Of a DNA stretch of 64,000 nt, positions 819-62,266 are shown one piece after another (the stretch's first letter is position 1; every line of letters begins with the position of its first letter). The notes beneath the pieces were generated by a model that was not told the DNA's origin, did no database searches, and worked only from the letters and a program-made list of their open reading frames with translations. A program made the position numbers and the translations under genes. The stretch comes from a virus. The DNA lies in the IMG/VR virus record IMGVR_UViG_3300034101_005937, positions 1 to 64,000 of that record, one strand, 5' to 3'.

Positions 819-1772
819 ATGACAAATTTTTCAGCATTTGTTCTTAAAAGAGATAACGAAATTTTAGAAGAGTTCAATCGTCTTTTGGATAAAAATTATA
901 AACTAGATCAAATTATTGAACATTTTAACAGAAAAGGAATCATGCTTAATGAAAGCATTCTTGGCAGCATTGGCAGTACTGCCAAGGGATTAGTTGCAGG
1001 ATTGGGTCATGTTGGTGAGCAAAATATTAAAGGAATTTTAAATATCATTAGTGGAGCTGCTAAAGGTTCTGCTGGTGGAGCTTTTGGATTAACAAGAGCA
1101 GGATTAGGAGCAATCGAAACTGGCGTTGGTCTTCCAATAGGAGCAATAAGTAACGATTGGGCTTTGATAGATATGGGTTCAAGTGAAGTTAAAAAGGGAT
1201 TGTATTCTGCTAGTAGTTCTTTATTAAGTGGTTTAAGTCAAATAGGAAAAGGTGCTGGTCAGATTGTAGCATCTCCAGTAACTGGTGCTATAAGAATGTT
1301 TCAAGCTGCTCGTCAGCCCGGATTTGGCAAACAACCGGGAAGTGAGTTGTCTCAATATTTTGGATTAGGAAGAAAGTCAAGACCCGGAGATATGGAAGAA
1401 GAATCTCCAGAAGAAACAGAATCACCAATACCTGAAAGAGGCAGTCACAAAAAAGATCCAATTATTAGTAATGGCGTTGAAGCTTTAAGAGTTTTATTAT
1501 CACAAGAAGAATTTGGAAATAATGCTTTAATATTATCTTACATTCCACCAGAAGATGGCGATAGGATATACTCATTCAGAGTAAATGAATTGATTGAAAA
1601 GATAAAAGAAATGGTAGATAAAATTAATTCCATGGAAGGATCAAATAAAAAAGAACAAAAAAATAAGTATAAAAACTTAAAACCAGCTGTAGAACAGATG
1701 TTGAAACGTATTATAAATACTTATGGAAGAGATTATTCATTGTATTTTAGGGAACACAGTTCTCAAATATAA
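819..1772 (+). CDS. Tagged glycine-rich hydrophobic protein, possible packaged or ejected protein
   Basis: The N-terminus (residues 1-45) contains an F-x-x-F-V segment and ends in L43-N44-E45, an [LI]-x-E site of the kind cut by T4-type prohead proteases. Residues 46-165 form a long Gly/Ala/Ser-rich, mildly hydrophobic stretch with GxxxG-like spacing. Then come an acidic Pro/Glu linker near residues 190-210 and a charged helical C-terminus. The minus-strand protein at 24643-25920 has the same plan with its LNE site at exactly the same residue. The GAGGT ribosome site and TAAATA box lie directly upstream. Inference: a virion-packaged protein that is processed during head maturation and may contact membranes. 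Its 3' end overlaps the convergent gene at 1747 by 26 bases. Confidence 0.7.
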   Translation: MTNFSAFVLKRDNEILEEFNRLLDKNYKLDQIIEHFNRKGIMLNESILGSIGSTAKGLVAGLGHVGEQNIKGILNIISGAAKGSAGGAFGLTRAGLGAIETGVGLPIGAISNDWALIDMGSSEVKKGLYSASSSLLSGLSQIGKGAGQIVASPVTGAIRMFQAARQPGFGKQPGSELSQYFGLGRKSRPGDMEEESPEETESPIPERGSHKKDPIISNGVEALRVLLSQEEFGNNALILSYIPPEDGDRIYSFRVNELIEKIKEMVDKINSMEGSNKKEQKNKYKNLKPAVEQMLKRIINTYGRDYSLYFREHSSQI

Positions 1773-2451
1773 ATTTTTCTTGATATAATTTATTGATTTC
1801 TTCAGTGTTAAAATCTTTAAATTTATCACATTCACTGATGTTATAAATTTCATCACGAATTTCTTCTGGTAATTTTTTCACCCAATTGCTGCAAAAACAC
1901 CAAATGGGATCTAGTTCTCTACATCTTACTTGAAGCAAGATTCTTTTTATATTTTTCACAAAAGTTTCATAATCTAAGTTATCACCAAGAGTTCTTTTGA
2001 GTGATTCTAATGATTTATTAAGTCCTACGTTTATGCTAGACTGATCTAATGTTTTATCATTAGCTTTCAGAACCATTCTTTTTTCTTCAATTTTTTTACT
2101 CCAAACATAAAAACGGTTCATTGCTTTTATGCCATGTAACATTCCGGGATAAATGTATGGATTGTTTTTTTCAAGTATTTTAGCTATTTCAAATTGAGCT
2201 TTTATAAAAAGAAAATAGTTAGAAGATGTTTCAAATTCAGCTCTTCTATCTTTGACGAGTTTAAGCAAATGTTTGAAAACTGCTTGTTTTTTAACTGGCT
2301 TTAAGTCGTTAAATGGCGTGTGTTTATAGTCAGGAAAATAAAATCTCTCACAATTTAGGTAGTAGATTGTGAGATGGTATGCAAAAAGCATATCTGGTTC
2401 GCCAGATAGCTTGAACATTTGCTCGTTGGATGCTTTGTAAAATTCTCGCAT
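1747..2451 (-). CDS. Hypothetical protein (234 aa)
   Basis: Mostly helical, charged protein with several Trp and Cys residues in its last third (two Trp and two Cys around residues 185-195). No family recognised. The ATG is preceded by AGGA at 7-base spacing, which decides the start. It is transcribed toward the tagged gene at 819-1772 and overlaps its end. A longer reading frame overlapping its 5' end on the same strand looks spurious. Confidence 0.65.
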   Translation of the reverse strand: MREFYKASNEQMFKLSGEPDMLFAYHLTIYYLNCERFYFPDYKHTPFNDLKPVKKQAVFKHLLKLVKDRRAEFETSSNYFLFIKAQFEIAKILEKNNPYIYPGMLHGIKAMNRFYVWSKKIEEKRMVLKANDKTLDQSSINVGLNKSLESLKRTLGDNLDYETFVKNIKRILLQVRCRELDPIWCFCSNWVKKLPEEIRDEIYNISECDKFKDFNTEEINKLYQEKFIFENCVP

Positions 2452-15687: not shown

Positions 15688-15718
15688 CAGACCTCCTTAA
15701 TCGGAGGTCTGTCTTTTT
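15688..15718 (+). terminator. Rho-independent terminator
   Basis: A perfect 9-bp GC-rich stem (15688-15696 with 15703-15711), 6-base loop and T-run. The T-run overlaps the -35 box of the next promoter, a very compact terminator-promoter junction. Confidence 0.9.
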
Positions 15719-15745
15719 GACAACTGTTGATTTCAAGTATATAAT
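15717..15745 (+). promoter_or_regulatory. Perfect consensus sigma-70 promoter, leaderless start
   Basis: TTGACA (15717-15722), 17-base spacer, TATAAT (15740-15745): an exact consensus match. The ATG of the helicase begins 6 bases after the -10 box, so transcription should start at or within a base or two of the ATG, with no ribosome site. It should be strong and recognised by unmodified host polymerase, hence early. Confidence 0.9.
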
Positions 15746-15751
15746 AAAATC

Positions 15752-17539
15752 ATGAACACAATAGAAATCGGCGAAGTTGTCGAGAAATCATCAGATTCTT
15801 TTAAGCTTTATAAATATCCTTTTGAAAACTTCAATGTTGTTCAAAGTTCTGTTTTGGATCATGTTGACAAAGATGCCAATTTTATAATTGCATCTTCAAC
15901 AAACAGTGGTAAAACAATAGTTGCTGAATTTTTTATTTTTGAATCTTTGATTAAAAATGACAAAAAATGCATTTACATGTGTCCTTTGAAATCACTTGCT
16001 TCTGAAAAGTTTTCAGCATGGTCATCTGAAGATCATCCATTTTCTAAGAAAAAAATAACAATAATGGCAGGTGATGAAAAGAAAGATAAAGATGGAGACT
16101 TAGTCGTAGCAACAATTGAAAGCTTTTGTCACAATGTAAGAACAAATCCAAATGTATTCGATGATATAGATACAATTATAGTAGATGAAGCACATATGAT
16201 CGGTTCAGATGATCGTGGTCCTACTTTAGAATTTGCTCTAACAGAATTTGCTAGAAAAAATCATTCAAAAATAATATTTCTCAGTGGTACATTGCCAAAT
16301 GCTAACCAAATCGGTGAATGGTTGCATGATTTAAACAAGAAACAAACCTATATTCTGAATTCAAACTATCAAGCTGTTCCTTTGAAAATACATTATAAGA
16401 AGTTTGACACATCTTTAAGTTCTAGTGGTGTCCCTCATGATATGTTTGATTGCATTTCAATTTTATGCGACAAACATCAGGCAGATAAGATATTAGTATT
16501 CGTTCATTCAAAGAATATTGGCAAAAAATTAGTGTCTTATATAAAGTCTAAAGGATTTGATACAAAGTTCCATTCAGCAGACTTGTCTCCTAGTAAGCGT
16601 AAAACGCTTGAGAAGGAGTTTAAGGAAGGAGCCTTACGAATACTCGTTGCAACAAGTACACTCGCTGCTGGCGTTAATTTGCCAGCTAGAAGAGTAATTA
16701 TAGCAGGGGTAGTAAGAGGCAAAGAGTTAGTTGATAAGTCTGAGATACGCCAGATGATTGGAAGAGCAGGGAGGAAAGGCATCGATGATCAAGGTGATGC
16801 TTATGTTTTCTTTCCAGATAACAAAATAACTTTAGCCAATGAGTACAAAAAAGTAGATGATGCTTTGTCAAAGTTATTTAATCTTAATGATGATTTAGAA
16901 TATAATAAACTTGCTATTCATATTCTTGCAATGATACATCAAGAAAAGAAACTTACATTTGATAAAATATGGAACATGCTTTCTAAGACATTTGGAGGAT
17001 TTCTCAACAAAGTAAATTCAAATTACTTGAAGAACACACTTGATAGGTTAGAGCATATGAAATTTGTTGTCATTGATGATGATGGTAATTACAATTTGAA
17101 AAAATTAGGTTTACCAAGTGTGTTATTTTTTATTGACCCTTATGATTTGAATTGTTGGATAAAAAGTTTTTCTAGATATTTTGCCGGAAGCGTTAGAAAA
17201 GATTCAATTCTTACATATTATCTTGCGTTTACACCAAGTAACAATAAAAACTTCATGTCAGAAGATGAAAAGAATTTTTGCTCTTTGTATATGCAAAGAT
17301 TGCAAGAGCTTTTAGGAAGAAACTATATTGAAACTGGATCAGTAAAAATAGGATATCTTTATTACTGCATGATGAATAAAAGAAGCACAGGCATGTTATC
17401 ACCATTGATTCCCGTCATAGTAAAAGATTTTGGCAGAATCTGTGCTTGCTTAAGTCTTGTTTCAAAAATTTGTGGTTGGAATTGTGGTGATTCATTTTTT
17501 TCGGATCTAAAAAATAGATTTAGTAAAAAAGAAGTTTAG
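15752..17539 (+). CDS. SF2 helicase, Ski2/Hel308-like
   Basis: ATP-dependent DNA or RNA helicase. Motif I (S-S-T-N-S-G-K-T, near residue 50), motif II (V-D-E-A-H, near 146), motif III (L-S-G-T, near 178), a second RecA domain with a V-A-T-S-T-L-A-A-G-V-N-L-P motif near 300-312 and motif VI (Q-M-I-G-R-A-G-R-K-G, near 333) are all present and in order. The G-V-N-L-P and G-R-A-G-R signatures point to the Ski2-like group (Hel308, Brr2, Mtr4) rather than RecG or RecQ. A C-terminal helical region of about 230 residues follows. It is driven by the perfect promoter upstream as a leaderless message, so it is probably made early. Confidence 0.9.
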   Translation: MNTIEIGEVVEKSSDSFKLYKYPFENFNVVQSSVLDHVDKDANFIIASSTNSGKTIVAEFFIFESLIKNDKKCIYMCPLKSLASEKFSAWSSEDHPFSKKKITIMAGDEKKDKDGDLVVATIESFCHNVRTNPNVFDDIDTIIVDEAHMIGSDDRGPTLEFALTEFARKNHSKIIFLSGTLPNANQIGEWLHDLNKKQTYILNSNYQAVPLKIHYKKFDTSLSSSGVPHDMFDCISILCDKHQADKILVFVHSKNIGKKLVSYIKSKGFDTKFHSADLSPSKRKTLEKEFKEGALRILVATSTLAAGVNLPARRVIIAGVVRGKELVDKSEIRQMIGRAGRKGIDDQGDAYVFFPDNKITLANEYKKVDDALSKLFNLNDDLEYNKLAIHILAMIHQEKKLTFDKIWNMLSKTFGGFLNKVNSNYLKNTLDRLEHMKFVVIDDDGNYNLKKLGLPSVLFFIDPYDLNCWIKSFSRYFAGSVRKDSILTYYLAFTPSNNKNFMSEDEKNFCSLYMQRLQELLGRNYIETGSVKIGYLYYCMMNKRSTGMLSPLIPVIVKDFGRICACLSLVSKICGWNCGDSFFSDLKNRFSKKEV

Positions 17540-17579
17540 ATTAGCTCTGTTAAAGAAAGTTTTCTTACCGGAGTATTTC

Positions 17580-31242: not shown

Positions 31243-31257
31243 TTTAAGGGGACATCA

Positions 31258-32448: not shown

Positions 32449-32450
32449 AA

Positions 32451-38220: not shown

Positions 38221-40689
38221 ATGAGCATTACAATTGAAAATTTTACAAAACTGATCAAACATCAGTTTAACAAATTTCCTTTTTGCAATGATCCAGAACA
38301 TAAGTTCAGGCTCAGATATGAATTAATTGAAATTGAAACACAAAATTGCTGCGATTATTTCATCGACCTCGTAAGACAAAAAAAGAAATTACCCAATGAA
38401 AACAATCTCCTTGTTCCAGTTCTTCTCGGAATATGTGATGAATTTAACATAAACGAAATGCCTAAAACAAAAACAAATGAATTTCCAGACGTTGATATTG
38501 ACTTTATAGCAGATGTTAGAGATTATCTTAAAAATACATACGCACCTAGTGAATACAAAGCTGTAAATACTTGTTCAATCGGAACTTATGGAAGATATGC
38601 TCTTAAGAGCGCCATGATTGACATGGCGAGAATATATGGATTAGACAGAAATGAAGTTTTAAATATTACTAAGAATTTAAGGATGAGAGATGAAGATGGG
38701 GATGAATTGACTTATGAGGAAGCTGTTGATACTTTTCCTGAATTAAAATCATATCTTGGAAAATATCCAGAATTAGCATTAGCAGTTCAAAAGTTGCTTC
38801 ATAGAATTAGAAATACAGGCAAACATGCTGGTGGTGTTATTATATGCAGAGATGAAATTAACAAATTCGTTCCCTTAATGAAAACTACTGGTGGTGATCA
38901 CTTAGTATCACAATTTGTTGAAGGATTAGCGACACAAGAACTTGGACCGCTTGGTCTTGTAAAATTTGATTTGTTGGTAATTAGTGCTTTAGAACAAATG
39001 GCATATACTGCAAAGATGGTAAAAGAAAGACATAATGTAAAATTCATTTCAGGCAATAATGAAGATTGGGATGATATATCTTATCTGAATGATCCAAAAT
39101 CAATAGCAAATGCTAATGACGCAGATCTTATTGGTGTGTTCCAGTATGATAGCAGTGGCATTAGAGAGGTCGTAAAAGCCTCTGGGATCGATAGTTTTAA
39201 TGACTTAGTAGCAATCGTCAGTTTGTATCGTCCGGGTCCGCTTAACGCAGAAATGGATAAAGTATTCATTAGAAGAAAAACAAAACAAGAAGAATACACA
39301 CTTCATCCCGCTCTTGCACCAATTCTTTCTTCTACATATGGAATTATTGTCTACCAAGAACAAGTTATGAGAATCCTTAACGTAGTTGGTAAAATTCCAC
39401 TCAAAGACTGCGAAACAATCAGAAAAGCCATTTCAAAGAAAAAAATATCAAGCTTTATAAAATATAAAGAACAGTTTATTGAAAACGGCATCCATGTACT
39501 TGAAGCAACAAGAGAAGAAGTAGCACAAATTTTCTCTGAAATTGAAGCTTTCGCCGCTTATGGATTCAACCTAAGTCATGCCACAGCTTATACTTACGTT
39601 TCATCACGCCAACTATATTTAAAGACACATTATCCGCTTGAATTTTATGCTGCTCTTCTGATGTTAGAAAAGGATGAGGAGAAGAAAAGAGTTTACATTA
39701 CAGATGCTTACAAGCATGGAGTGATTGTTAATCCTGTTGACATAAACAAAAGCAGTTATAATTTTTCTATTCAAGACAATCAGATTTATGCAGGGTTTGG
39801 CAACATTAAGGGAATTGGAGAGGATACAGCTAGAGATATAGTATTAAAGAAGCCTTATAAGGGCATACACGATTTTCTACAGCGGTTTGGATCGGATGCT
39901 AGTGTATTGAAAGCTTTGATTCCTTTGCGTGTGTTTGGGGTCAATACTGAGAAGGATTACAAGTTCTGGCAAGCGTATTCTCTTCAGAACAAGAAAGTTA
40001 TTGACAAGAATAAAAGATCTAATAAAAGTTATTTGGATCTTAAGAAAAGTATTATGAGTTTATTGCCAGAAAAGTATTATAATTTGGAGTTATCTGAAAG
40101 TTTGTTTGGTATACTTTCAAGTATAAATCCTAGTCCAGACGTATTGAAATTGCATAAAAAATGGAAGAGGATGACACAGAAAGGAACAGCCGAGGTAGAG
40201 ATTAGTTATGATGATTTTGATGAAGATGAAATTACAATTGATGATAAAGAATTGATTCTTGATCTTAACGACATTCATTTGGCAGAAAGAAAGCATTATG
40301 GTTTTCAGTTTACTTGTCGATTGTCTACATTCAAAATGTACGATCCTAGTTGTACATTTGCAAATTCTATTGAATTGCATGCTAATGGTGTTCGCAGGCA
40401 CAATGTTCAGATTGAAGTTTTAGATGTGAATGTTAAGTATTCTAAGAATAACAAATCATATTGTCAGTTAATTGGCATGGACAGTGAGTTTAGGATAGAA
40501 AGAATTAATGTATGGGCAGACGATTATGTGATATTTAAGCATATTCTAGAAAAGAATAATTGTTTATCAATACAGGTTTCTCCACCAACCAATGGATTTT
40601 CTACTTTTAGTTTAAACTCTCCTCCTCAACATAAAAGATATCTTTTGCCATCAAACACTCTTGATTACAGAATTGTTTTAATAAACTAG
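38221..40689 (+). CDS. dnaE: DNA polymerase III alpha, C-terminal catalytic part
   Basis: Second piece of the C-family polymerase. P-D-V-D-I-D-F near residue 90 supplies two catalytic Asp, and V-K-F-D-L-L near residue 247 the third. K-H-A-G-G-V, the Y-Q-E-Q-V-M segment, Q-L-Y-L-K-T-H-Y-P-L-E-F and a helix-hairpin-helix (G-F-G-N-I-K-G-I-G-E-D-T-A) follow in normal order. The first 85 residues look like a worn second copy of the region that ends the N-part (R-L-R-Y-E-L-I-E-I...Y-F-I...L-L-G-I), without the G-P-G-R-G-S motif. The tau-binding tail is shortened or divergent. It is expressed from its own leaderless promoter. Confidence 0.9.
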   Translation: MSITIENFTKLIKHQFNKFPFCNDPEHKFRLRYELIEIETQNCCDYFIDLVRQKKKLPNENNLLVPVLLGICDEFNINEMPKTKTNEFPDVDIDFIADVRDYLKNTYAPSEYKAVNTCSIGTYGRYALKSAMIDMARIYGLDRNEVLNITKNLRMRDEDGDELTYEEAVDTFPELKSYLGKYPELALAVQKLLHRIRNTGKHAGGVIICRDEINKFVPLMKTTGGDHLVSQFVEGLATQELGPLGLVKFDLLVISALEQMAYTAKMVKERHNVKFISGNNEDWDDISYLNDPKSIANANDADLIGVFQYDSSGIREVVKASGIDSFNDLVAIVSLYRPGPLNAEMDKVFIRRKTKQEEYTLHPALAPILSSTYGIIVYQEQVMRILNVVGKIPLKDCETIRKAISKKKISSFIKYKEQFIENGIHVLEATREEVAQIFSEIEAFAAYGFNLSHATAYTYVSSRQLYLKTHYPLEFYAALLMLEKDEEKKRVYITDAYKHGVIVNPVDINKSSYNFSIQDNQIYAGFGNIKGIGEDTARDIVLKKPYKGIHDFLQRFGSDASVLKALIPLRVFGVNTEKDYKFWQAYSLQNKKVIDKNKRSNKSYLDLKKSIMSLLPEKYYNLELSESLFGILSSINPSPDVLKLHKKWKRMTQKGTAEVEISYDDFDEDEITIDDKELILDLNDIHLAERKHYGFQFTCRLSTFKMYDPSCTFANSIELHANGVRRHNVQIEVLDVNVKYSKNNKSYCQLIGMDSEFRIERINVWADDYVIFKHILEKNNCLSIQVSPPTNGFSTFSLNSPPQHKRYLLPSNTLDYRIVLIN

Positions 40690-40697
40690 TTTATTTT

Positions 40698-41628: not shown

Positions 41629-41655
41629 ATATATAGTTTAATGGAGGCAACAACA

Positions 41656-42345: not shown

Positions 42346-42538
42346 TTTAGAAAAAAAATTCATGATTCGATGTCTGAAATGCCGTTGGGCAGAAACATCC
42401 ACCGGCATTTCAGATGATCTAAAACATCTTACAGAAATTCCTAGAACATGTATGAACTGTGGAACACCTCGCCAGTTCAAATGTCCTAAATGTGGTCGTG
42501 CAGCTAAAATGATGCGGATTAAAAGAAGTGCGCCATAA
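42338..42538 (+). CDS. Small zinc-ribbon protein (66 aa)
   Basis: Three C-x2-C pairs: C-L-K-C near residue 12, C-M-N-C near 37 and C-P-K-C near 49, giving one or two zinc sites, with a basic tail. The ATG overlaps the preceding gene end. Could bind nucleic acid or act as a transcription adaptor. Confidence 0.6.
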   Translation: MSDLEKKFMIRCLKCRWAETSTGISDDLKHLTEIPRTCMNCGTPRQFKCPKCGRAAKMMRIKRSAP

Positions 42539-43667
42539 GTATTTAAATTTAAAAAAAGAAAATAAAGAATTATTTAATGAGCTTGTTTTTAACAAGCATA
42601 TATTTAAAGAAGAGAAACAACTTTCTGAGAAGTTGTTTTATTTTTCTTTTGGTGAATTTGGTTGTGAATCTATAATACCAACATTTTTGATTCCGAGAAT
42701 TAATAATAATTTTAAAGAATACAGGAAGATTGTTGTTGGTTGGCAAGGTAGAGAATACTTTTACAGAGATGTCTGCGATGAATTTTGGGAAATAGACAAT
42801 GAATTCATGTCTCTTAAAGACAGATCCCATGCTTTTGAAAATCACTCAACAGAAATAGCAAGTCTTGAAAAAAGATTATCTAATTTAGGCATCGTTATTA
42901 ATGGTAATAAGATGGGTAATTTGTGTTTAACGTGTAGATGTGCTGCTTGTTCTCATGAGTTTCCAAGAGACAGGGGCGATGTATATTGTCCAAAATGTAA
43001 TTCTGTTAAAATAATTAAGTCTTTGATACAAGGATGCAAAGACTACAAAAACAATGTTTATCCTTTGCCGCAAATAAATCAAAAATATATTGATTTTGCG
43101 GACGAATTGATTCCTGAAAAATCTGTTGCTCTATTTGCTAGAAACAGAAAAACGTATGGCAGAAATTTGCCAAAAGATTTTTACAATGATGTTATCAATC
43201 TTCTAACAGATTTTGGATACAAAGTAGTATTGCTTGGAGAAGTGAGTTCTAGTTATAACATTGATAATGATAAGATTATTAATCTTATGAATCATGAGTA
43301 TGTTGGCAATTTGGAAGCAGCTTTTGCAGTTGTTAAAAAATGTGATTTTTCTCTTCAATTCTATACAGCATCTACAAGAATAAGTAGTTTGTTGAATAAA
43401 CCTTTTGTGCTGGTAGAATCGCCAGAGCAAATGTTTGGCAGAGGTCAAGAAGGGTTTAGACTGTCCTTAATGACTAAAAAATATAGTGATAAAAAGCTAG
43501 TTGTATCCAATTTTGTGGATGTAGTTGATAATTTTTCAGAATTTCTAACTATGCTTAAAGATGCAGTAATAGATTTTATAGTAAACAAAAATTCTGAAGA
43601 CGTGTTTTTTAGACCGAATGATATGTTATTAGCTCAAAGTCAGAAATACAAAGAAAACATATGGTAA
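42528..43667 (+). CDS. GT9/heptosyltransferase-like protein with zinc-ribbon insert
   Basis: The C-terminal half (from about residue 195) reads like the donor domain of ADP-heptose:LPS heptosyltransferases: an A-R-N-R-K-T strand end, a helix, V-V-L-L-G-E, then a D-F-S-L-Q-F-Y-T-A-S-T strand-loop and a K-P-F-V-L-V-E-S-P edge. A C-R-C-A-A-C...C-P-K-C ribbon is inserted near residues 135-160, which is unusual for the family. GTG start. Given HldE at 26 kb, ADP-heptose is a plausible donor (inference). Overlaps the next, related-looking gene by 7 bases. Confidence 0.5.
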   Translation: MRHKYLNLKKENKELFNELVFNKHIFKEEKQLSEKLFYFSFGEFGCESIIPTFLIPRINNNFKEYRKIVVGWQGREYFYRDVCDEFWEIDNEFMSLKDRSHAFENHSTEIASLEKRLSNLGIVINGNKMGNLCLTCRCAACSHEFPRDRGDVYCPKCNSVKIIKSLIQGCKDYKNNVYPLPQINQKYIDFADELIPEKSVALFARNRKTYGRNLPKDFYNDVINLLTDFGYKVVLLGEVSSSYNIDNDKIINLMNHEYVGNLEAAFAVVKKCDFSLQFYTASTRISSLLNKPFVLVESPEQMFGRGQEGFRLSLMTKKYSDKKLVVSNFVDVVDNFSEFLTMLKDAVIDFIVNKNSEDVFFRPNDMLLAQSQKYKENIW

Positions 43668-44806
43668 ATGCTGTTGATATAAAAGAAGTTATAGAATCTG
43701 CCTCTATAAGAGGTAATTTTATTAGAGAGAAGTTTGATTCAAGGAATATTCCTGATAATCTACAAAAAATAATTGTAATACCAATATTTCCAGAATTAAG
43801 TCATCTTTTAGTTTTTGCAAATTACATATTTCCTAGTTTAAAGAATGATATTAATTTTAAAGACAAGTACATTATAATTGTTACTTGGAAAGGATTTTCT
43901 AAGTTTTTTGCACAAGCAGATGAAGTATGGTCACAGAAATCTGTTGATAATATTGATAGATTTTATGAAAAAACTGAAGGCATGTTAAATAAATCAGATA
44001 CAATAACTGTCATTTTTAGAAGTTTGAATGAATTTTTCAGAAACGTAATTGACCCATCTAGATTTGCAAATTTATTTCAGAATGGCTTCAATAGATCAAA
44101 TATAGGTAAAAATTCTATTGATATAGTTAAATCAAATTTGCCTAATATAAATTATTTGAATCAAAGTATTGTTAAAAGTATTTCAGAATTAGGTGAAAGA
44201 AAGGTTTTTATAATTCCTTTTAAATTCATCAAGCAATGGCACTTAGGTAAGGTAATATTGCATAAATTATCGTCTTCTTTTTACCAAAGTGTGATAGAAA
44301 GTTTTACTTCTAAAAACATTAAATGTGTTGTTTTAAAGAATTATATGACGTTTGATATTTCTAAGGATTTTATTGACAATCCTAATGTTTTGTTTGTTCA
44401 AGAAGATGATTGGTTTTTGGTGATGGCGTATATGCTTTCAACTAAGATATTTGTTGATTTCTTTTCTGGTCTTAATTCAATGTCAATGTATTGTGGTTGC
44501 AGAAGTATTAGTATTGCGGAAAGAAATTTTAACGTAGTTTCTAACCAAAAAGATATAGAATTATGTATGACAGATTCAAATATTGATACTAAAGTCTTTA
44601 CGTTTTTCGATTTAAATTATAGTTTGCTTAATAAAAAGTTATTTTTCATAGATAAATTAATTTATGAGATTGTAAATACTAACCTTGACAAGCATATCGA
44701 AAATAAAAATAAATATTCAGTTGATTTGCAGGCAAGTATAGTTGAAAGAGTAAAACAGTTTCACCCCAAGTTTATAGGCATTAAAAAGAAAGTGATTGAG
44801 GAATAA
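43661..44806 (+). CDS. Possible second glycosyltransferase (GT9-like paralogue)
   Basis: Same size as its upstream neighbour and similar order of elements: an N-terminal I-I-V-I-P-I-F-P-E-L-S-H strand-helix, a W-K-G-F-S-K-F-F segment resembling W-Q-G-R-E-Y-F in the neighbour, and a late F-V-D-F-F-S-G-L-N-S-M-S-M-Y-C-G segment like the donor-site end of GT9 enzymes. The zinc ribbon is absent. It is probably a diverged duplicate. Catalytic residues cannot be judged by eye. Confidence 0.45.
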   Translation: MVNAVDIKEVIESASIRGNFIREKFDSRNIPDNLQKIIVIPIFPELSHLLVFANYIFPSLKNDINFKDKYIIIVTWKGFSKFFAQADEVWSQKSVDNIDRFYEKTEGMLNKSDTITVIFRSLNEFFRNVIDPSRFANLFQNGFNRSNIGKNSIDIVKSNLPNINYLNQSIVKSISELGERKVFIIPFKFIKQWHLGKVILHKLSSSFYQSVIESFTSKNIKCVVLKNYMTFDISKDFIDNPNVLFVQEDDWFLVMAYMLSTKIFVDFFSGLNSMSMYCGCRSISIAERNFNVVSNQKDIELCMTDSNIDTKVFTFFDLNYSLLNKKLFFIDKLIYEIVNTNLDKHIENKNKYSVDLQASIVERVKQFHPKFIGIKKKVIEE

Positions 44807-44807
44807 A

Positions 44808-45086
44808 ATGGCACGAAAGGCAAATGTTAGAGTAGTTTCAAGAGACAACGGTTATGACGATCATCGTGACAGGTCTTTTAAAGCTTTGATGAGTGCATTC
44901 CGTCAAGCAGTCAATAAGGCTGGTATCTTGCGTGAATACAGGCTTAGAGAAACATATGAAAGCCCATCAGAGAAGTCACGCAGGAAGAGGCGTGAGAAGG
45001 AAGCTACTATTCTTAAGAGTCAGATGAGAGAAAGCTTCCCTGTTAAAAACAAAAAGGAAAAGCCATGTCCGAAAAACAAAAAATAA
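44808..45086 (+). CDS. rpsU: Ribosomal protein bS21 homologue
   Basis: 92 residues with the bS21 layout: F-K-A-L-M-S-A-F-R-Q-A-V-N-K-A-G-I-L-R-E-Y-type helix, then R-x-x-Y-E-S-P-S, then a Lys/Arg-rich C-terminal helix. Known: bS21 sits by the anti-Shine-Dalgarno end of 16S rRNA and affects initiation; phage-encoded copies have been reported in some large and marine phages. ATG 44808 after GAGG is preferred over an upstream start. Expected to exchange into host 30S subunits. The C-terminal extension is Lys/Pro-rich. Confidence 0.75.
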   Translation: MARKANVRVVSRDNGYDDHRDRSFKALMSAFRQAVNKAGILREYRLRETYESPSEKSRRKRREKEATILKSQMRESFPVKNKKEKPCPKNKK

Positions 45087-45382
45087 TCACTTTTGGTATT
45101 CCAGAATCTTTATACAACAAAATAAATGATGTTGCTTCTGCGAAAGATCAGAAAGTATCAGTCTACATGAAAAAATTTGTAGATGATTATTTTACTGATG
45201 ACAAGAATATTGTCAGAGTTGTACTTGATGCACCAAAGGATAAGCGTGGGGATAAGCTTTATATGAGAGCTTGGTTTGAGCAAAAGGTAGAATACTTAAT
45301 CGAAAAGTTATATGATCAATTGGCTCATGAAAATCCAAATGGTCCTTGGTCTACACCTACAGCGCATGAGGACTATGAATAA
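45065..45382 (+). CDS. Small protein with ribbon-helix-helix-like N-terminus
   Basis: Residues 7-45 (a strand I-I-T-F-G-I-P, then two helices with V-S-V-Y-M-K-K-F-V-D-D-Y-F) fit an Arc/CopG-type fold, so DNA-binding regulation is possible. The rest is polar with Trp and Pro near the end. It overlaps the bS21 gene by 22 bases and touches the next start. Confidence 0.5.
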   Translation: MSEKQKIITFGIPESLYNKINDVASAKDQKVSVYMKKFVDDYFTDDKNIVRVVLDAPKDKRGDKLYMRAWFEQKVEYLIEKLYDQLAHENPNGPWSTPTAHEDYE

Positions 45383-45636
45383 TGCCATTGAGTATCGATC
45401 AGGTTTATGACATCTGTCTTGCTAGTGATAACAAAGGTAACTGCTGCAAATATCTTTCTCAAGACAGTGGAGGATCAGACTTCCACTGTCTCAAGAAAAC
45501 TGAGTATAAAAAAGACATAGATTATGAAACTAATGTAAATGCAAAAAAAGATCCTACCATTCCTCAAGGTGATAATTGTCCGGGTTATCCAGTGTTTCAG
45601 CATTTAATTGTTGGATACGACCAAAAGAACTCTTGA
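45382..45636 (+). CDS. Small Cys-containing protein (84 aa)
   Basis: Five Cys: one near residue 12, C-C near 21, one near 36 and D-N-C-P-G-Y near 66. The C...C...P-x-x-D-x-C-x-x-Y order loosely resembles the protein at 18169-18426, so both may belong to one metal-binding group. The ATG overlaps the previous stop. Confidence 0.5.
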   Translation: MPLSIDQVYDICLASDNKGNCCKYLSQDSGGSDFHCLKKTEYKKDIDYETNVNAKKDPTIPQGDNCPGYPVFQHLIVGYDQKNS

Positions 45637-45658
45637 CACAAATCTTTCAATTGATAAA

Positions 45659-46111
45659 ATGACTGCGGACATATCCCGGAATGGAGTCTTTGATATGCTG
45701 CATAGTCTGAGCAGTGTTTGTCTTTTTGATGGTGAAGAGAATCAAGATTTTGTACCTGTCACAAAACATGAATACATAAAAAACATCTTTGAAAGAGTGT
45801 TTTCTAATTTAAAAGATGTAGATGGTAATGATCTTTCAGGAAAAGCTGAATTCCAAGAAAAATATATTTCAACTTTGGAAAAGTGTGATATTGAAAACAC
45901 AATAGATCTTATTTACAAGCTTATTGGTAAAAAAATTAAATTGGGAAGTGCGATTTATTATAAAGATGATATGGATGCAGAGCTTCCAAAAGATGTAGTT
46001 ATTGTAATAGAAATGATTAAGCATTTGCACTTCCACAGGGTGCCCAAAAAATTTGTAGCTGGGTTTTTATTACTTATGGTTAGATTTATTTATTTTCCGC
46101 TAAATAATTAG
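45659..46111 (+). CDS. Hypothetical protein (150 aa)
   Basis: Soluble helical protein with a hydrophobic last 25 residues. The start is uncertain: TTGACA (45633) and TAAAAT (45655) with a 16-base spacer form a good promoter overlapping the ATG at 45659, and GGAG (45683-45686) stands 8 bases before an in-frame ATG at 45695, which may be the true start. No family recognised. Confidence 0.5.
   Translation: MTADISRNGVFDMLHSLSSVCLFDGEENQDFVPVTKHEYIKNIFERVFSNLKDVDGNDLSGKAEFQEKYISTLEKCDIENTIDLIYKLIGKKIKLGSAIYYKDDMDAELPKDVVIVIEMIKHLHFHRVPKKFVAGFLLLMVRFIYFPLNN
46099..46106 (+). promoter_or_regulatory. TAAATA late-promoter-like box
   Basis: GCTAAATA ends 6 bases before the ATG of the tagged gene at 46113, and no ribosome site lies between. 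If used as a -10 element the mRNA would be leaderless. Confidence 0.35.
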
Positions 46112-46112
46112 T

Positions 46113-46460
46113 ATGAAAACATTTGAAGAATATAATCTACTTTGGCTCAACTTGGCTTTTGTAAAATCAAAAGCCAATAAAGAGCATTCTTTCTTATATA
46201 AATATTTTGATAAAAGTCCTCATAAAGAGGCTATGGAATATTTTTATGTTATGGGAGAGAATTATATTTATCTATTTACTGATCATACAGGGTATAAGGC
46301 AAACGCTTCTTTTCTTTCAAAACAGTTTTATAAATTTAAGAGTCTTATGAGCATATATAATAAAGCCAAGCAAGAAATTGACTTGGAAACTTTGAGAAAA
46401 TTAGATCAAGGCAAAATAAAACCAAGACATTTTAAGGAGATAAATGCTGATAAAATATGA
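46113..46460 (+). CDS. Tagged hypothetical protein (115 aa)
   Basis: The N-terminus M-K-T-F-E-E-Y-N-L-L fits the tag pattern, though no [LI]-x-E site follows closely. Aromatic-rich helical body (many Tyr and Phe) with a Lys-rich C-terminus. It overlaps the next tagged gene by 17 bases. Probably a virion protein by association. Confidence 0.6.
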   Translation: MKTFEEYNLLWLNLAFVKSKANKEHSFLYKYFDKSPHKEAMEYFYVMGENYIYLFTDHTGYKANASFLSKQFYKFKSLMSIYNKAKQEIDLETLRKLDQGKIKPRHFKEINADKI

Positions 46461-46665
46461 AGATTGGCGATTAATGCAAGAATCATCTCCTCTGACTCGT
46501 CAAAGGCTAGGTTGGGGCAGAAAGGGTTCTTATCCATTAAGAGCAGACTTCATGAGCCACAGCACTCCTCCTCCTGATATTATGAACAAATTAATTGATA
46601 CTTTTGGGACAACTGACGGTAAACATAAACCAAAACGCAAGAGGCGAAGGAAAAAACATGGTTAA
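46444..46665 (+). CDS. Tagged small basic protein (73 aa)
   Basis: M-L-I-K-Y-E-D-W-R-L-M-Q-E-S-S-P is a variant tag (M-Q-E site). The body is Arg/Pro/Ser-rich and ends in a strongly basic Lys/Arg tail of about 16 residues, as does the tagged protein at 20079. AAGGAG precedes the start. Suits packaging with DNA (inference). Confidence 0.6.
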   Translation: MLIKYEDWRLMQESSPLTRQRLGWGRKGSYPLRADFMSHSTPPPDIMNKLIDTFGTTDGKHKPKRKRRRKKHG

Positions 46666-47404
46666 TTGTAAATCTGCTTGGATTAATACAACTGATTGTT
46701 GCAATTCATCTATTTCAGGAACTCCTGATTATGTAACAAAGCAACACAGTACTTACCCTCCTCTTAGGATTGAAGTTACTGATTGCGATCAACAACCATA
46801 TGATTTGAAAGATTTGGTTGTTGAAGCAAATATGTGGACAAATGCAAAACTTAAAACTGCTTTAACTATAAATGACAATTTAATTAAATTTGCTGATAAT
46901 GTTGGATATGATAGTGTTGGTCCAAATTCTATTCTCCATGTATCTTCTGGTAGAGATTTTGAACGAATGACAGTTGTTGGCTTTGATGATGTTAATAAGG
47001 TCATTCAAGTACAACGAGGCGCTTGTGATACAAGAATTCGTCCTTGGTTGAAAGGCACACCTGTAAAAGTTTTAAGATTCATAAATGCTGCTGCTGCTTC
47101 AGAAATGGTATATTCTGACAAAGAAAATATCGATGGAACAATTTCTCTTAATGTTTTGCAGAAAAGCTTTCTCATTTATGAGTGGAAGCCAGAAGACGTT
47201 TGTTTTATAGGTAAATATTATTTCGAGTTTAAAGTCTTAAAAATGAACCTATTAACAAGCCTTGATAGCATTGATATAATACCAGCTAGCAATATTGATT
47301 ATCATTGCGAATTAGGTCTTGGTGTCGAATGGGCAAGAAGATTCCCTAACGACAAGGAAGGCTTCATAGTAGAGGTTTCAGCTAGCCCAACAGCGGAGTG
47401 TTAA
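46658..47404 (+). CDS. Possible baseplate or tail-fibre-associated protein (BppU-like N-terminus)
   Basis: Residues 30-190 show strands typical of an N-terminal tail/baseplate upper-protein domain: P-L-R-I-E-V-T-D-C-D-x-x-P-Y-D-L-K-D-L near residue 30 and a later G-K-Y-Y-F-E-F-K-V-L near 185. A middle segment (I-Q-V-Q-R-G-A-C-D-T-R) looks like an added small domain. Start set at ATG 46658 after GAAGGA. Assignment is by pattern only. It overlaps the tagged basic gene by 8 bases. Confidence 0.45.
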   Translation: MVNCKSAWINTTDCCNSSISGTPDYVTKQHSTYPPLRIEVTDCDQQPYDLKDLVVEANMWTNAKLKTALTINDNLIKFADNVGYDSVGPNSILHVSSGRDFERMTVVGFDDVNKVIQVQRGACDTRIRPWLKGTPVKVLRFINAAAASEMVYSDKENIDGTISLNVLQKSFLIYEWKPEDVCFIGKYYFEFKVLKMNLLTSLDSIDIIPASNIDYHCELGLGVEWARRFPNDKEGFIVEVSASPTAEC

Positions 47405-47405
47405 T

Positions 47406-47930
47406 TTGTCGGACATTAATCGTTTGCGTGTAAATTTTCAGATTCGTATCCCCCAAGTAAGAGTCATGCAAGATGGAAAAGTCTTGGGCATTATGCCAAC
47501 AGAGAAAGCCCGAAACATGGCTTTTGATTTGGGATTGGATCTTGTTGAAATAGTTCCAAACGCAATTCCTCCTGTTTGTCATATTCTTGATTATTCAAAA
47601 TATAAATACGAACAAAAAATGAAGATTAAGGAAAATAATAAAAAACAAAGAGAGACTGCTCAAATATCAAAAGAAATTAGATTGTCTCCTGTTATTGGCA
47701 AACATGACTTAGAAACCAAGATCAAGCATATTGTTGAATTTTTGCAAGATGAGAAAAAAGTTCAAATTACAATGAAATTTAGATCTAGAGAAATGCAACA
47801 TAAAGAAGTTGGATTTGAAAAAATTAATGCAATTTTGGAAAAGTGTAAAGAAGTTTGCTTGGTAGAATCTAATCCAAAATTTGAAGGCACACGTCTTATC
47901 TGTCGTTTAGCTCCACAAAAAACAAATTAA
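47406..47930 (+). CDS. infC: Translation initiation factor IF3
   Basis: Complete two-domain IF3. The N-domain has R-V-M-Q-D-G-K-V-L-G-I-M-P-T-E-K-A; the linker and C-domain have K-E-I-R-L-S-P-V-I-G-K-H-D-L and the basic M-K-F-R-S-R-E-M-Q-H ribosome-binding loop. Length of 174 aa is normal (E. coli 180). It starts with TTG, 7 bases after GGAG, just as cellular infC uses a rare AUU start that IF3 itself discriminates against; autoregulation is plausible. Phage IF3 is rare. With bS21 it could bias initiation toward phage messages. Confidence 0.92.
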   Translation: MSDINRLRVNFQIRIPQVRVMQDGKVLGIMPTEKARNMAFDLGLDLVEIVPNAIPPVCHILDYSKYKYEQKMKIKENNKKQRETAQISKEIRLSPVIGKHDLETKIKHIVEFLQDEKKVQITMKFRSREMQHKEVGFEKINAILEKCKEVCLVESNPKFEGTRLICRLAPQKTN

Positions 47931-47968
47931 TACACTCATTTAAATTGTAGTCCTATGGAGATTTAATA

Positions 47969-48271
47969 ATGGCAGATTTGAAGAAGGTTACTGGCTGTAA
48001 GCCTTGTGGCTCACAGGTTTTGATTGAACTCTTGACAACCCAAGAACTAGCAAACACAAAGTTGTTCTTGACTAACAAGAAGCAAAAAGATGATTTTCAG
48101 GCAATTGTTTTGGCAGTAGGTCCATCTATCAAGACCGAAAATTATGGCTTTAATGTCGGTGATAGAGTTGTTATCTCAGGCGGCGCAGTTCCTGTTCCAG
48201 ATTATGGACCAGAATCTGAACGTGAACGAGTTTTGGTTGAACCATCAACCATCAAAGCTGTACTGGTTTGA
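47969..48271 (+). CDS. GroES-like co-chaperonin
   Basis: About 100 residues with the chaperonin-10 pattern: an N-terminal strand K-P-C-G-S-Q-V-L-I-E-L, a mobile-loop-like polar segment (residues 24-38), A-I-V-L-A-V-G-P, V-G-D-R-V-V-I near residue 63 and a last strand T-I-K-A-V-L-V. T4 gp31 is the phage precedent: it replaces GroES so GroEL can fold the major capsid protein. Sequence similarity is moderate, so the fold call is fairly safe and the function inferred. GGAG precedes the ATG. Confidence 0.65.
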   Translation: MADLKKVTGCKPCGSQVLIELLTTQELANTKLFLTNKKQKDDFQAIVLAVGPSIKTENYGFNVGDRVVISGGAVPVPDYGPESERERVLVEPSTIKAVLV

Positions 48272-48737
48272 AAGAAACATTTTTAATTTTATAGGCGTTT
48301 CTTAAATATTGAGGACCACAGTATGACGCTTCTATACGAGTTATATTTGATGAATCAGAGCTAATGTCCTTTCCGTGTCTTTGGAAAGCGACTTTTAGCT
48401 TGGTCTTATTAGGGATGATAGGCAAATCCCCTTGAATTGATCTGTATTGACCGGGACTAAAGTAAAGTTTAGTCCCGTCTTCTAATTCAATTTCAATTAT
48501 TTTTTTCTTGTCATTCAAAACAGTTACCATTTTCTCTTTTACAACTTCTGGTATGCCAAATTCACCATCATTTATAGCTAAGTCTAAATCTGGTAAGTGG
48601 TTCGGTCTTCCAGAGTATCCAAATGTTGAAACAGCTTGTGATCCGGTGTCACTGCTTGTTTGTACAGCTCCGGGGAACGGTTTGTTAAAACCTGAAAATG
48701 GGTTTTTATTTTCTATAAATTTTTTGAATCCAATCAT
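48252..48737 (-). CDS. Tagged hypothetical protein (161 aa)
   Basis: Starting at 48737 gives M-I-G-F-K-K-F-I-E-N, which fits the tag family; an in-frame ATG at 48755 adds six residues and is also possible, neither having a clear ribosome site. The body is Pro/Ser-rich near the N-terminus, then beta-rich (I-I-E-I-E-L-E-D-G-T-K-L-Y-F). No family recognised. Converges on the GroES-like gene with a 20-base overlap. Confidence 0.55.
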   Translation of the reverse strand: MIGFKKFIENKNPFSGFNKPFPGAVQTSSDTGSQAVSTFGYSGRPNHLPDLDLAINDGEFGIPEVVKEKMVTVLNDKKKIIEIELEDGTKLYFSPGQYRSIQGDLPIIPNKTKLKVAFQRHGKDISSDSSNITRIEASYCGPQYLRNAYKIKNVSFKPVQL

Positions 48738-48772
48738 TATCTTAGTATGTATCATTTTGTAAAGGAATTTTT

Positions 48773-49183
48773 ATGAGTATTGAAAAGTCGAATTTTAATT
48801 TTGGTTCCAATGTTAAGAAATCATCAATGTCTGATAGGAATTATTTATTGAGAACTCAAGGTCGTTCTTCTAATTGGACACATGATTCAGTCAAAAGATT
48901 GATTGAAGCAAAAATTCAAGATGAACAAATTAAACAAAAAATGTTGCAAAAATTGAATAAGTGTCCTGATGGCGCACTTGAATCATTTGTTTTAAATATG
49001 GAAATTAATATTTCTAAAATTATTGAAGAATCATTGCCAAAACAAGAAAAAAAGAATTTGAAAAAGAAACTTGATACTATTACAATGGATGACATCATTG
49101 CGATGAGGAATACAATTTCCGAAGAAGCCAAACAGGAGCAAGGTAAAGATGACCTCCCCCCTACCGATCCAAATTTTGTGTGA
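48773..49183 (+). CDS. Hypothetical charged helical protein (136 aa)
   Basis: Polar N-terminal 35 residues, then Lys/Glu helices with a P-K-Q-E-K-K-N-L-K-K-K run near residue 88 and an acidic disordered end. AAAGGA precedes the ATG. Its last 35 bases overlap the dUTPase gene in another frame. No family recognised. Confidence 0.55.
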   Translation: MSIEKSNFNFGSNVKKSSMSDRNYLLRTQGRSSNWTHDSVKRLIEAKIQDEQIKQKMLQKLNKCPDGALESFVLNMEINISKIIEESLPKQEKKNLKKKLDTITMDDIIAMRNTISEEAKQEQGKDDLPPTDPNFV

Positions 49184-49592
49184 AGATTTGTTTTTTATTC
49201 CAGAGAAGTCAACTGCTGGGTCTTTGGGACTTGATCTAAAAGCAAAACTTGAAGAAGATGAAATAACAATATATCCACTTGATACTATCAAAGTAAAAGC
49301 TGGATTTTCATTAGCCATACCAAATGGCTATCATGCTAAAATTGTTTCAAGAAGTGGATTGTCAAGCAAAGGCATTGTTGTAAGCAACTCGCCGGGAATA
49401 ATTGATAGTGACTACAGAGGTGAGATTTGTGTTTTGTTAACAAATACTGGCAAGAATCCTTACAAGTTGGCAAATAAAACAAGAGTAGCACAAATGTTTT
49501 TTGATAAGAATCTTGATACAGAATTTGTTTTTGTTACTTCATTAGATCAGACTGAACGTGGTGCTGGCGGTTTCGGTTCAACTGGAGCATGA
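49149..49592 (+). CDS. dut: dUTPase
   Basis: Trimeric dUTP pyrophosphatase, giving dUMP for ThyX and keeping uracil out of DNA. All five family motifs are seen: G-L-D-L-K-A near residue 27, S-R-S-G-L-S near 69, N-S-P-G-I-I-D-S-D-Y-R-G near 80, R-V-A-Q-M near 113, and the C-terminal R-G-A-G-G-F-G-S-T-G. Length of 147 aa is standard. AGGT-type site upstream lies inside the preceding gene. Confidence 0.95.
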   Translation: MTSPLPIQILCEDLFFIPEKSTAGSLGLDLKAKLEEDEITIYPLDTIKVKAGFSLAIPNGYHAKIVSRSGLSSKGIVVSNSPGIIDSDYRGEICVLLTNTGKNPYKLANKTRVAQMFFDKNLDTEFVFVTSLDQTERGAGGFGSTGA

Positions 49593-60351: not shown

Positions 60352-60657
60352 ATGAAAATATCTTCTTGCCCATTTTGCGGAAAACCATTCCCTCAAATTT
60401 TGCACGATGGAATTATTTTTTGTGATAAATGCAATCACATGGTTGAAAGCTCACTTAGAAACAAATTGTTAAGCGTATTCAGATCAGTAGAAAAATATAA
60501 TGGTGTAAGTCTTAGTCAGATAAAGTATGAAGCAGAACTTGATGATCAATCATGGCAATTGATCATCAAGTCCTATGAGGATTGTTTATCATGGCAGGAA
60601 TTTCAGGAATTACTAAATAAAATGTCACTGTCATCTTCTTCTTCAAGCTTGTCTTGA
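60352..60657 (+). CDS. Small zinc-ribbon protein (101 aa)
   Basis: C-P-F-C near residue 6 and C-D-K-C near 24 form a zinc ribbon; then a helical domain with two Trp, ending in a Ser-rich tail. The ATG comes 5 bases after an ATTAAATA block and has no ribosome site. Convergent with csrA; ends overlap by 55 bases. Confidence 0.55.
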   Translation: MKISSCPFCGKPFPQILHDGIIFCDKCNHMVESSLRNKLLSVFRSVEKYNGVSLSQIKYEAELDDQSWQLIIKSYEDCLSWQEFQELLNKMSLSSSSSSLS

Positions 60658-60830
60658 CGACCAAGAAGTTCTTCTCTTGCGATCACATAGTCTTTGTCAG
60701 CATCGATACCGATTTTTACTCTTCCGTTCTTACCATAACCTTGAATTCCACAGATTGTTAAGGCAATGTCTTTGCCTTCTGGGGTTTTGATGTAAACTTT
60801 TTCGTATAACTTGCGTGTAAGTACTAACAT
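60603..60830 (-). CDS. csrA: CsrA-like translational regulator
   Basis: The start M-L-V-L-T-R-K and the V-I-A-R-E-E-L segment near residue 50 (equivalent to the V-H-R-E-E RNA-contact region) are CsrA hallmarks, with the intervening strands matching. The C-terminus carries an acidic Asp/Glu tail beyond the usual 60 residues. Strong AAGGAGG precedes the ATG. Known: CsrA binds A(N)GGA motifs at ribosome sites to block or activate translation. In a phage it could retune host or phage mRNAs. Confidence 0.85.
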   Translation of the reverse strand: MLVLTRKLYEKVYIKTPEGKDIALTICGIQGYGKNGRVKIGIDADKDYVIAREELLGRQDKLEEEDDSDILFSNS

Positions 60831-60912: not shown

Positions 60913-61365
60913 ATGTACAATCTAAAGACAATAACAAAAAAAGTTCCTTTATTTGTTTACGGAACATTGAAAAAGGGTGAAAGAGCTTACAATAGACTTG
61001 AAGGGTCAAAGCTCATAGCCATGGCTGAACTTCAACCAGAATATAAATTACTTAATTGTGGAAGATATCCAGCACTAGTAAAAGCCAAGAATGGTACGAA
61101 TGCTATTTCTGGCGAAATTTATGAAGTTGCTAAAGATGTTCTTGAAAATTTACACAATTATGAAGGTGTAAGTTCTGGTTTGTTTTATTTTGATTATTTG
61201 TCTTTAGGCGAAATTGAAATTGTTAATCAACCAGAAGACAATTTAACCAAAATGATGCTCAACAGAAGTCTTGCTTTTGGTTATCTTTATGTTAATCAAA
61301 ATGAAAATTTACCAGAAATAGAACACTGGTCTACTGATTTTCTCTTTTCTCTAGCCATTCGTTGA
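60913..61365 (+). CDS. Gamma-glutamylcyclotransferase (AIG2-like) family protein
   Basis: F-V-Y-G-T-L-K-K-G-E near residue 14 is the substrate-binding loop signature; the later G-E-I-Y-E-V and the N-Y-E-G-V segment near 85 fit the fold, with a conserved acidic residue on the expected strand. The fold releases 5-oxoproline from gamma-glutamyl amines or peptides. Could reverse or pair with the amidoligase at 53782. AAGGA precedes the ATG. Confidence 0.75.
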   Translation: MYNLKTITKKVPLFVYGTLKKGERAYNRLEGSKLIAMAELQPEYKLLNCGRYPALVKAKNGTNAISGEIYEVAKDVLENLHNYEGVSSGLFYFDYLSLGEIEIVNQPEDNLTKMMLNRSLAFGYLYVNQNENLPEIEHWSTDFLFSLAIR

Positions 61366-62266
61366 AACTTGGCATGTTGTGTTCTTTCAACATATATTTT
61401 TTCTTGCTTTTGCGCCATGTGCCGCCATGTTTCTTATAGTCTTTTGCTGCCCATGCATTTGCATAAGCTGAATTTCCTGTAACACATGGTTGATCATTAA
61501 TATTGGTCACCCATGTGCCTAATGATGTTTCTGGACACCAAACCATTTCATTACCAGATGGATGTATTTCAAAATTGCTTAGTAAAGGCATTCCTTCATC
61601 AACAAACAATTTGGTATAGGATTGAAATCCCATTGTAGATTCAAGCAATAATTGATCGTTCTGTTCAATAACCCATTTATGATCAAGGGTAGATGTGCAG
61701 AAATAATGTCCATCAGTGTAAATTTCATGCACAGGAGCATTTTTATGGATGTGTATGTTTTCTATTTTAACAAATTTCCTTATTCTTTCATTAAGATCAA
61801 ATGCAGCAATCTCATCTCCAACTTTTAATTCATTAACGTATTTCCACCCATCCTTAGTTAAAGCTGGATAAGATACAGGCAAACATGGATACACATCAAA
61901 TTTTCTTTTAGCTTTAGCTTTTGATTGTGCCCACAACTTGGGATTATTTGGCAAGTTTTTGCCTTCACTAAGATTTTCGTGAGATACCATAACTGGTTTT
62001 CTCCCTTTGTGATGAGGGTTTTTCTTTTCTGCTCTGCGTTTTTGGGCAGTAGCCTTTTCTTTAAGCTCAGGACTCATTGCAGCGGCTTTTTTTGCTGGAC
62101 GGCACTTGGGGTAGGCTTTCTTCTGATCGCCCTTTCTAGACCCCTTTTTGGAGCTTGCACCACATGGTGGATGTTTGCCTGATTTGTCTTTGCGAGAAAT
62201 GTCTACCCATTTCTCGTCAAACCATTTACCAAGACCTGAGTTTTTGTATGTTTCGTTAATATCCAT
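61331..62266 (-). CDS. DUF5872-like protein interrupted by a mini-intein
   Basis: The host protein has a G-L-G-K-W-F-x-E-K-W-V-D-I start, then Lys/Arg/Pro-rich stretches with K-H-P-P-C-G and R-P-A-K-K, and K-F-D-V-Y-P at residue 127. It resumes as S-A-Y-A-N-A-W-A-A-K at residue 266 with G-G-T-W-R. Together K-F-D-V-Y-P/S-A-Y-A-N-A-W reads as one conserved block. Residues 128-265 are a self-splicing Hint domain. The very C-terminus (P-S-F-N-E-W-L-E-K-R-E-N) is tag-like, but at the wrong end of the protein. The spliced product would be about 173 residues, very basic, probably DNA- or core-associated. Confidence 0.75.
   Translation of the reverse strand: MDINETYKNSGLGKWFDEKWVDISRKDKSGKHPPCGASSKKGSRKGDQKKAYPKCRPAKKAAAMSPELKEKATAQKRRAEKKNPHHKGRKPVMVSHENLSEGKNLPNNPKLWAQSKAKAKRKFDVYPCLPVSYPALTKDGWKYVNELKVGDEIAAFDLNERIRKFVKIENIHIHKNAPVHEIYTDGHYFCTSTLDHKWVIEQNDQLLLESTMGFQSYTKLFVDEGMPLLSNFEIHPSGNEMVWCPETSLGTWVTNINDQPCVTGNSAYANAWAAKDYKKHGGTWRKSKKKYMLKEHNMPSFNEWLEKRENQ
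61472..61885 (-). mobile_element. Mini-intein (138 aa), no homing endonuclease
   Basis: Begins with Cys (residue 1 of the intein) and a D-G-W-K-Y-V-N-E-L-K-V-G-D-E-I-A-A-F block A-like region, has a T-S-T-L-D-H block B (Thr-x-x-x-His), and ends V-T-G-N followed by Ser. The penultimate residue is Gly, not the usual His. At 138 residues it is a minimal splicing domain. Splicing should be possible, but the Gly may slow it. Confidence 0.8.

Follow-up and report, generated by a model that had tools for sequence, protein, structure and literature searches.

What does a phage do with two proteins of bacterial translation initiation whose genes lie close together? The question is raised by bases 1–64000 of the 77,851-base virus record IMGVR_UViG_3300034101_005937, a stretch of 64,000 nucleotides referred to below as the window, in which genes for ribosomal protein bS21 and initiation factor IF3 are found. 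The record is probably a fragment of a larger genome. By shared gene order at the bS21–IF3 locus, the phage was grouped in a huge-phage lineage with LR756511 (595 kb), an uncultured huge-phage genome. The two genes are intact, selected and close together on one strand, and their linkage is conserved in distant relatives. Our preferred reading, held with some caution, is that the cluster is part of a huge-phage translation-takeover module that would raise initiation on phage messages led by a Shine–Dalgarno (SD) sequence. A regime built on leaderless messages and GTG/TTG starts, as proposed in an earlier note on this DNA, is not supported; the cluster itself, however, is genuine and conserved, and lends itself well to testing.

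An intact and conserved gene pair

The earlier note had placed bS21 from 44808 onwards and IF3 up to 47930, a span within about 3 kb, and both genes are present there. In the following, G000 denotes the window phage, and G001 and G002 its two nearest relatives; all are partial records.

44808..45086, + strand: bS21 (rpsU-like), 92 amino acids, with basic N- and C-terminal extensions (PF01165)
47395..47398, + strand: SD sequence GGAG, 7 nt before the infC TTG start (read directly; identical in G001 and G002)
47406..47930, + strand: IF3 (infC-like), 174 amino acids, both domains, TTG start (PF05198, PF00707, phrog_9787, fold)

bS21 matches Pfam family PF01165 above the cut-off (E 2e-10, 40.7 bits versus 27), and its core aligns with solved bS21 chains. 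The predicted model is helical, with moderate confidence (predicted local distance difference test, pLDDT, 70), and the N- and C-terminal extensions are lineage-specific. For IF3 both Pfam domains are matched over their full length (PF05198, 8e-25; PF00707, 2e-28), as is phrog_9787 (7e-47). The protein is ~38–43% identical to full-length solved IF3 structures, and its AlphaFold model (mean pLDDT 87) shows the two-domain IF3 fold with a helix, residues 63–87, linking the domains; a Foldseek search with this model returned matches to IF3. In comparisons of the window phage with two relatives, the ratio of amino-acid-changing to silent substitutions (pN/pS) is 0.09–0.17 for bS21 and 0.13–0.24 for IF3. 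Substitutions are thus mostly silent in both genes, indicating purifying selection on them as proteins. Ahead of the bS21 start stands GAGGA, and the infC TTG start is kept together with its GGAG in G001 and G002, so that both genes are SD-led.

Orthologues of bS21 are present in G001, G002, G003 and G004. Close bS21 homologues were found in four IMG/VR records, and in three of them IF3 follows bS21 on the same strand at a distance of 2.6–3.6 kb, whereas the contig of the fourth breaks off shortly past bS21. A profile-guided search yielded 73 IMG/VR records with IF3, of which 50 were tested for bS21 and CsrA, and the co-occurrence shares were computed from the IF3-bearing records as the starting set. 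bS21 was detected in 37 of the 50 (36 above the curated cut-off). Both genes lie on the same strand in all 37 records and within 20 kb of each other in 36 of them (records up to 511 kb), where the 37 pairs include near copies (~31 distinct distances) and other kin, so that a sign test overstates the evidence for linkage. Searching known phages with bS21 by tblastn gave no match, probably owing to the short, divergent protein; a profile search of seven known-phage records found bS21 in four.

The pairing occurs in at least three arrangements. bS21 is located either 3.6–11 kb upstream of IF3 with shared intervening genes, or upstream with no detectable shared intervening genes, or ~18 kb downstream, the latter in one IF3 clade with 100/99 support. 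Some 18 non-redundant loci, LR756511 among them, share much of the window gene order. In 12 of these lineage loci bS21 and IF3 have a peptide deformylase gene between them, and in 12 a DnaJ gene stands downstream of the cluster. By tblastn neither was found at the locus in the partial records G000, G001 and G002, although they are present in most other lineage members. A deformylase-like match also directly adjoins IF3 in the unrelated loci L157, L170 and L184. Linkage and conservation point to a putative shared role of bS21 and IF3 in initiation.

Layout of the cluster, and a separate CsrA

From 42528 to 48271 the genes are co-directional; neighbours overlap or are a few bases apart, and the widest gap, ahead of the GroES-like gene, is 38 nt. 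The genes between bS21 and IF3 encode a ribbon-helix-helix (RHH)-like protein, a small Cys protein, three proteins of no assigned function and one with weak similarity to tail proteins. For most cluster neighbours PHROG and Pfam gave no function.

45065..45382, + strand: small RHH-like protein overlapping the bS21 end (weak CopG match, 0.064); adjoins bS21 in relatives
45382..45636, + strand: small conserved Cys-containing protein, in most lineage loci between bS21 and IF3; no Pfam match
45633..45660, + strand: sigma70-like promoter TTGACA-16-TAAAAT within the cluster (11/12 consensus)
45695..46111, + strand: protein of no assigned function, probable start ATG 45695 with SD GGAG; start kept in G001 and G002
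46113..46460, + strand: protein of no assigned function conserved across the lineage (p46113)
46444..46665, + strand: small basic protein of no assigned function, 86–89% identical in the nearest relatives
46655..47404, + strand: conserved protein directly upstream of IF3 (p46655), in nearly all lineage loci; weak tail-protein similarity (phrog_1101, 3e-5)
47969..48271, + strand: GroES-like co-chaperonin (PF00166, 9e-7), SD-led, conserved downstream of IF3
48452..48477, + strand: terminator-like hairpin downstream of the cluster, 10-bp stem (consensus match only)

In G001 and G002 the promoter at 45633–45660 is matched by a counterpart in the corresponding position, TTGAC(A/T)-16/17-TAAA(A/C)T, which suggests that the IF3 half of the cluster can be transcribed separately. 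Promoter-like sites in 40600–49200 total 36 versus 40 by chance and thus show no excess. A promoter-like site within p46655 upstream of infC (47252–47280) was rejected, as it is not conserved in relatives.

The earlier note had further counted a CsrA among the factors that, together with bS21 and IF3, could reset which messages are initiated.

60603..60830, − strand: CsrA-like regulator, 75 amino acids (PF02599, 5e-13), ATG start with perfect AAGGAGG

The gene is real and, like bS21 and IF3, clears its Pfam threshold comfortably; both ends of the CsrA core are conserved (MLVLTRK for the N-terminal MLxLTR motif, VIAREEL for the AREEL-type motif). A start at TTG 60920 was rejected, since ATG 60830 sits behind the perfect AAGGAGG. 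The tie to the pair could not be upheld: CsrA is not part of the bS21–IF3 cluster, being located ~13 kb from IF3 on the opposite strand and occurring in only 10 of the 50 IF3-bearing records tested, several of them with two copies. It may provide added post-transcriptional control. The relatives G005, G007, G008, G014, G018 and G019 each have a pair of CsrA matches that point in opposite directions, with some 2–8 kb between the two. Two 30S initiation proteins and a CsrA are hence encoded, as the note had said; nothing in the sequence indicates that they replace the host proteins.

Initiation signals and rival explanations

With starts picked blind to SD sequences, an SD core was found for 45% of the genes in the record versus 4% of internal ATGs, making SD initiation the main detectable mode. 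Crude gene calling gave 83 ATG, 7 TTG and 1 GTG starts. These are ordinary numbers, even though the infC TTG is conserved in three relatives. Leaderless genes were assessed by where strict two-box sigma70-like promoters stand with respect to the start codon. Four genes of the window record have a −10 box whose end lies precisely 6 nt ahead of the ATG, compared with ~0.1 at each other position; across eleven records of the lineage, 19 promoters stand at 6 nt versus ~3.4 per position, 5-fold over background. The signal appears only in this stricter test, as TANNNT boxes 4–9 nt before starts show no general excess, and the strict pattern fits only ~1–4% of genes.

38221..40689, + strand: DNA polymerase III alpha C-part, predicted leaderless (TTGATT-17-TAAAAT-6-ATG)
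15752..17539, + strand: SF2 helicase, predicted leaderless (TTGACA-17-TATAAT-6-ATG); not conserved in other relatives
61331..62266, − strand: DUF5872 protein (3e-7), possible leaderless gene (TTAATA-18-TATAAT-6-ATG)
1747..2451, − strand: protein of no assigned function, possible leaderless gene; the −10 box also reads as SD, ambiguous and not conserved

For the polymerase C-part, G000, G001 and G002 have all kept the boxes and the 6-nt distance while the bases in between differ, which supports truly leaderless transcripts of this gene. The same gene is SD-led in G004, G008, G014 and G019. As the cluster also occurs in relatives with an SD-led polymerase, predicted leaderless use is a lineage-specific trait of a minority of genes and is not bound to the presence of bS21 and IF3. 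What remains of the leaderless genes claimed earlier is a real minority promoter signal at predicted or possible leaderless genes (15752 and 38221 on the + strand, 62266 and 2451 on the − strand), from which the SD-led bS21 and IF3 themselves are excepted.

Two further observations concern these genes. The DNA polymerase III alpha sequence comes in two pieces, an N-part (PHP and the start of the catalytic domain, 35153–36496, + strand) and the C-part at 38221–40689 (+ strand), with opposite-strand genes between them. Separate open frames for the two parts were found in those lineage records that were examined, and no intein is visible where the gene is interrupted. The DUF5872 protein (61331–62266, − strand) contains a probable mini-intein insert (CLPVSYPALTKDGWKYVNELKVGDEIAAFD ... 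VTGN then S), judged by eye only.

According to our preferred reading, phage bS21 would be incorporated at the anti-SD platform of the host 30S subunit, while phage IF3 would keep 30S subunits free and speed correct start selection. Through both factors, initiation in the infected cell would be raised on, or redirected to, the abundant SD-led mRNAs of the phage, so that phage proteins are preferred; in relatives, deformylase and chaperones may handle the additional nascent protein. Leaderless messages would, if affected at all, be disfavoured by an excess of IF3. Several points weigh against this reading. IF3 points to no host, being only 41–50% identical to any bacterial IF3 found. Arginines 99, 112, 116, 147 and 168 of E. 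coli IF3 are replaced by S, K, E, A and T, respectively. Finally, given the conserved promoter between bS21 and IF3, simultaneous production of the two proteins is not required.

Regarding the host, the best bacterial matches of IF3 (41–50% identical) are scattered over Kiritimatiellota, Calditrichota, Alphaproteobacteria and Actinomycetota. A host assignment from the IF3 tree was dropped because the window clade was not placed by the tree and the best matches are scattered. A PfkB kinase fused to a cytidylyltransferase domain (25955–27325, + strand), HldE-like (heptose synthesis), gives a hint of a Gram-negative host. With respect to the arginines, the changes could mean that 30S affinity or fidelity differs. 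In a residue comparison with E. coli, of the kind proposed in the earlier note, the five arginines are changed, while Y75, K110, R131 and R133 (E. coli numbering) and most core residues are retained. The five sites vary in bacteria as well; glutamate at position 116 occurs in 27 of 54 phage rows versus 2 of 24 bacterial rows, the rows being related and the comparison a lead only.

Among the alternatives, we consider it rather unlikely that bS21, IF3, deformylase and co-chaperonin merely replenish scarce host factors in a long infection, leaving the choice of messages unchanged. Such a dosage supplement is in line with an IF3 that has both domains and most core residues, and with neighbours of housekeeping function (deformylase, GroES), but neither the lineage-specific extensions of bS21 nor the loss of several basic residues from IF3 would be needed in simple copies.

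A switch from early to late messages appears improbable. Here, the few leaderless genes would be translated first by host ribosomes, and accumulating phage IF3 and bS21 would then close down leaderless initiation and favour SD-led messages. Raised IF3 is indeed reported to inhibit leaderless translation (PMC9031893), in keeping with the discrimination named in the earlier note, and the sharp promoter peak with the −10 box 6 nt before the ATG fits as well, together with the polymerase pattern conserved in three phages despite differing intervening bases. Yet the cluster is kept in relatives with an SD-led polymerase, the strict leaderless pattern is restricted to the small share of genes given above, and, with a sigma70-like promoter before its part of the cluster, IF3 may be early too. 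We give as little credence to a broader version in which bS21, IF3, deformylase, GroES and DnaJ would form a conserved operon working as a single programmed protein-birth unit, with bS21 and IF3 serving initiation, deformylase acting on the first residue and GroES and DnaJ assisting folding, and in which rising IF3 would switch infected cells from leaderless early to SD-led messages.

Very unlikely is the idea of the earlier note that altered phage IF3 and bS21 favour leaderless mRNAs and GTG/TTG starts. The arginine changes, some predicted leaderless genes and the conserved infC TTG start speak for it. However, a published review describes IF3 as not discriminating against AUG, GUG or UUG (PMC4611024), contradicting the assumed discrimination against GTG/TTG, and with this indifference the argument from such starts falls. 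Since high IF3 inhibits leaderless translation, extra IF3 would work against leaderless messages unless the phage IF3 is altered, and four residues, R131, R133, K110 and Y75, are retained in it. In addition, SD-led genes dominate, and leaderless use and cluster do not co-vary across relatives. Hardly any weight is given to a counter-defence or moonlighting role, in which the phage versions would stand in for host factors modified or destroyed by a defence or stress response, although the distance of the phage IF3 from any bacterial IF3 found fits an escape from host-specific attack; nothing specific speaks for it, no search for a defence system directed at IF3 or bS21 having been made.

Other genes and comparison with known systems

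A PrkA-like AAA protein kinase (PF08298, PF06798) and SpoVR (PF04293) with one gene between them (29167–34046, + strand) resemble the bacterial prkA-yeaH-spoVR cluster; PrkA is 51–86% identical across the lineage. Three long SGNIASGQIG-type repeat proteins, probably tail-fibre-like, are encoded on the − strand of L003 at 8278–17776 (record 68278–77776), and one of them matches phrog_19111.

Bacterial infC and rpsU belong to the same protein families as the phage pair. In bacteria, infC usually lies with rpmI-rplT and rpsU with dnaG-rpoD, and with such differing operon partners the phage pair does not seem to descend from a bacterial operon. IF1, IF3 and S21 have been described in huge phages, for which a redirection of host translation was proposed (Al-Shayeb et al. 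2020, PMC7162821); these phages encode IF3 and S21, as does the window phage. The main text of that paper contains neither the word "operon" nor "adjacent", and no clustering of the genes came to light there. IF3 and S21 genes in huge phages were thus previously known, and the conserved clustering is a new detail. Neither for the conserved same-strand linkage nor for the interposed deformylase was a description found in openly searchable papers, with subscription papers and supplements outside this scope.

Should the two phage proteins act on host ribosomes, the virus would alter the composition of the initiation complex, beyond supplying tRNAs or mRNAs. The conserved bS21–IF3–deformylase linkage provides a compact gene set for joint testing, which single-gene reports did not offer, and with predicted leaderless genes beside a phage IF3 one can ask directly if the amount of IF3 governs leaderless translation when a phage infects its natural host.

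Among cultivated phages, the Sinorhizobium jumbo phages AP-J-162 (PMC11242549) and Phosso encode both IF-3 and S21, as here. In Phosso, S21 is located ~7 kb downstream of IF3 and the neighbourhood differs from that in the window; AP-J-162 carries L7/L12 in addition. For the bS21 phages of PMC9723584 and pelagiphage HTVC008M (PMC6375957), bS21 was proposed to enter host ribosomes, similar to our proposal. In the former, bS21 lies beside virion genes and late bS21 expression is described; IF3 is unmentioned in that paper. In LR756511 the block runs bS21, RHH-like protein, deformylase, Cys protein, p46113, p46655 and IF3, and the window order is alike. Going by its record type, LR756511 probably stems from the 2020 study, although it was not seen named in the main text. 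The block of LR756511 includes deformylase, whereas no deformylase or DnaJ was detectable at the locus in the window phage, G001 or G002; both genes are common in the lineage but were not used to define the cluster. With bS21 and IF3 on the same strand and shared syntenic genes, the window phage matches the LR756511-type cluster.

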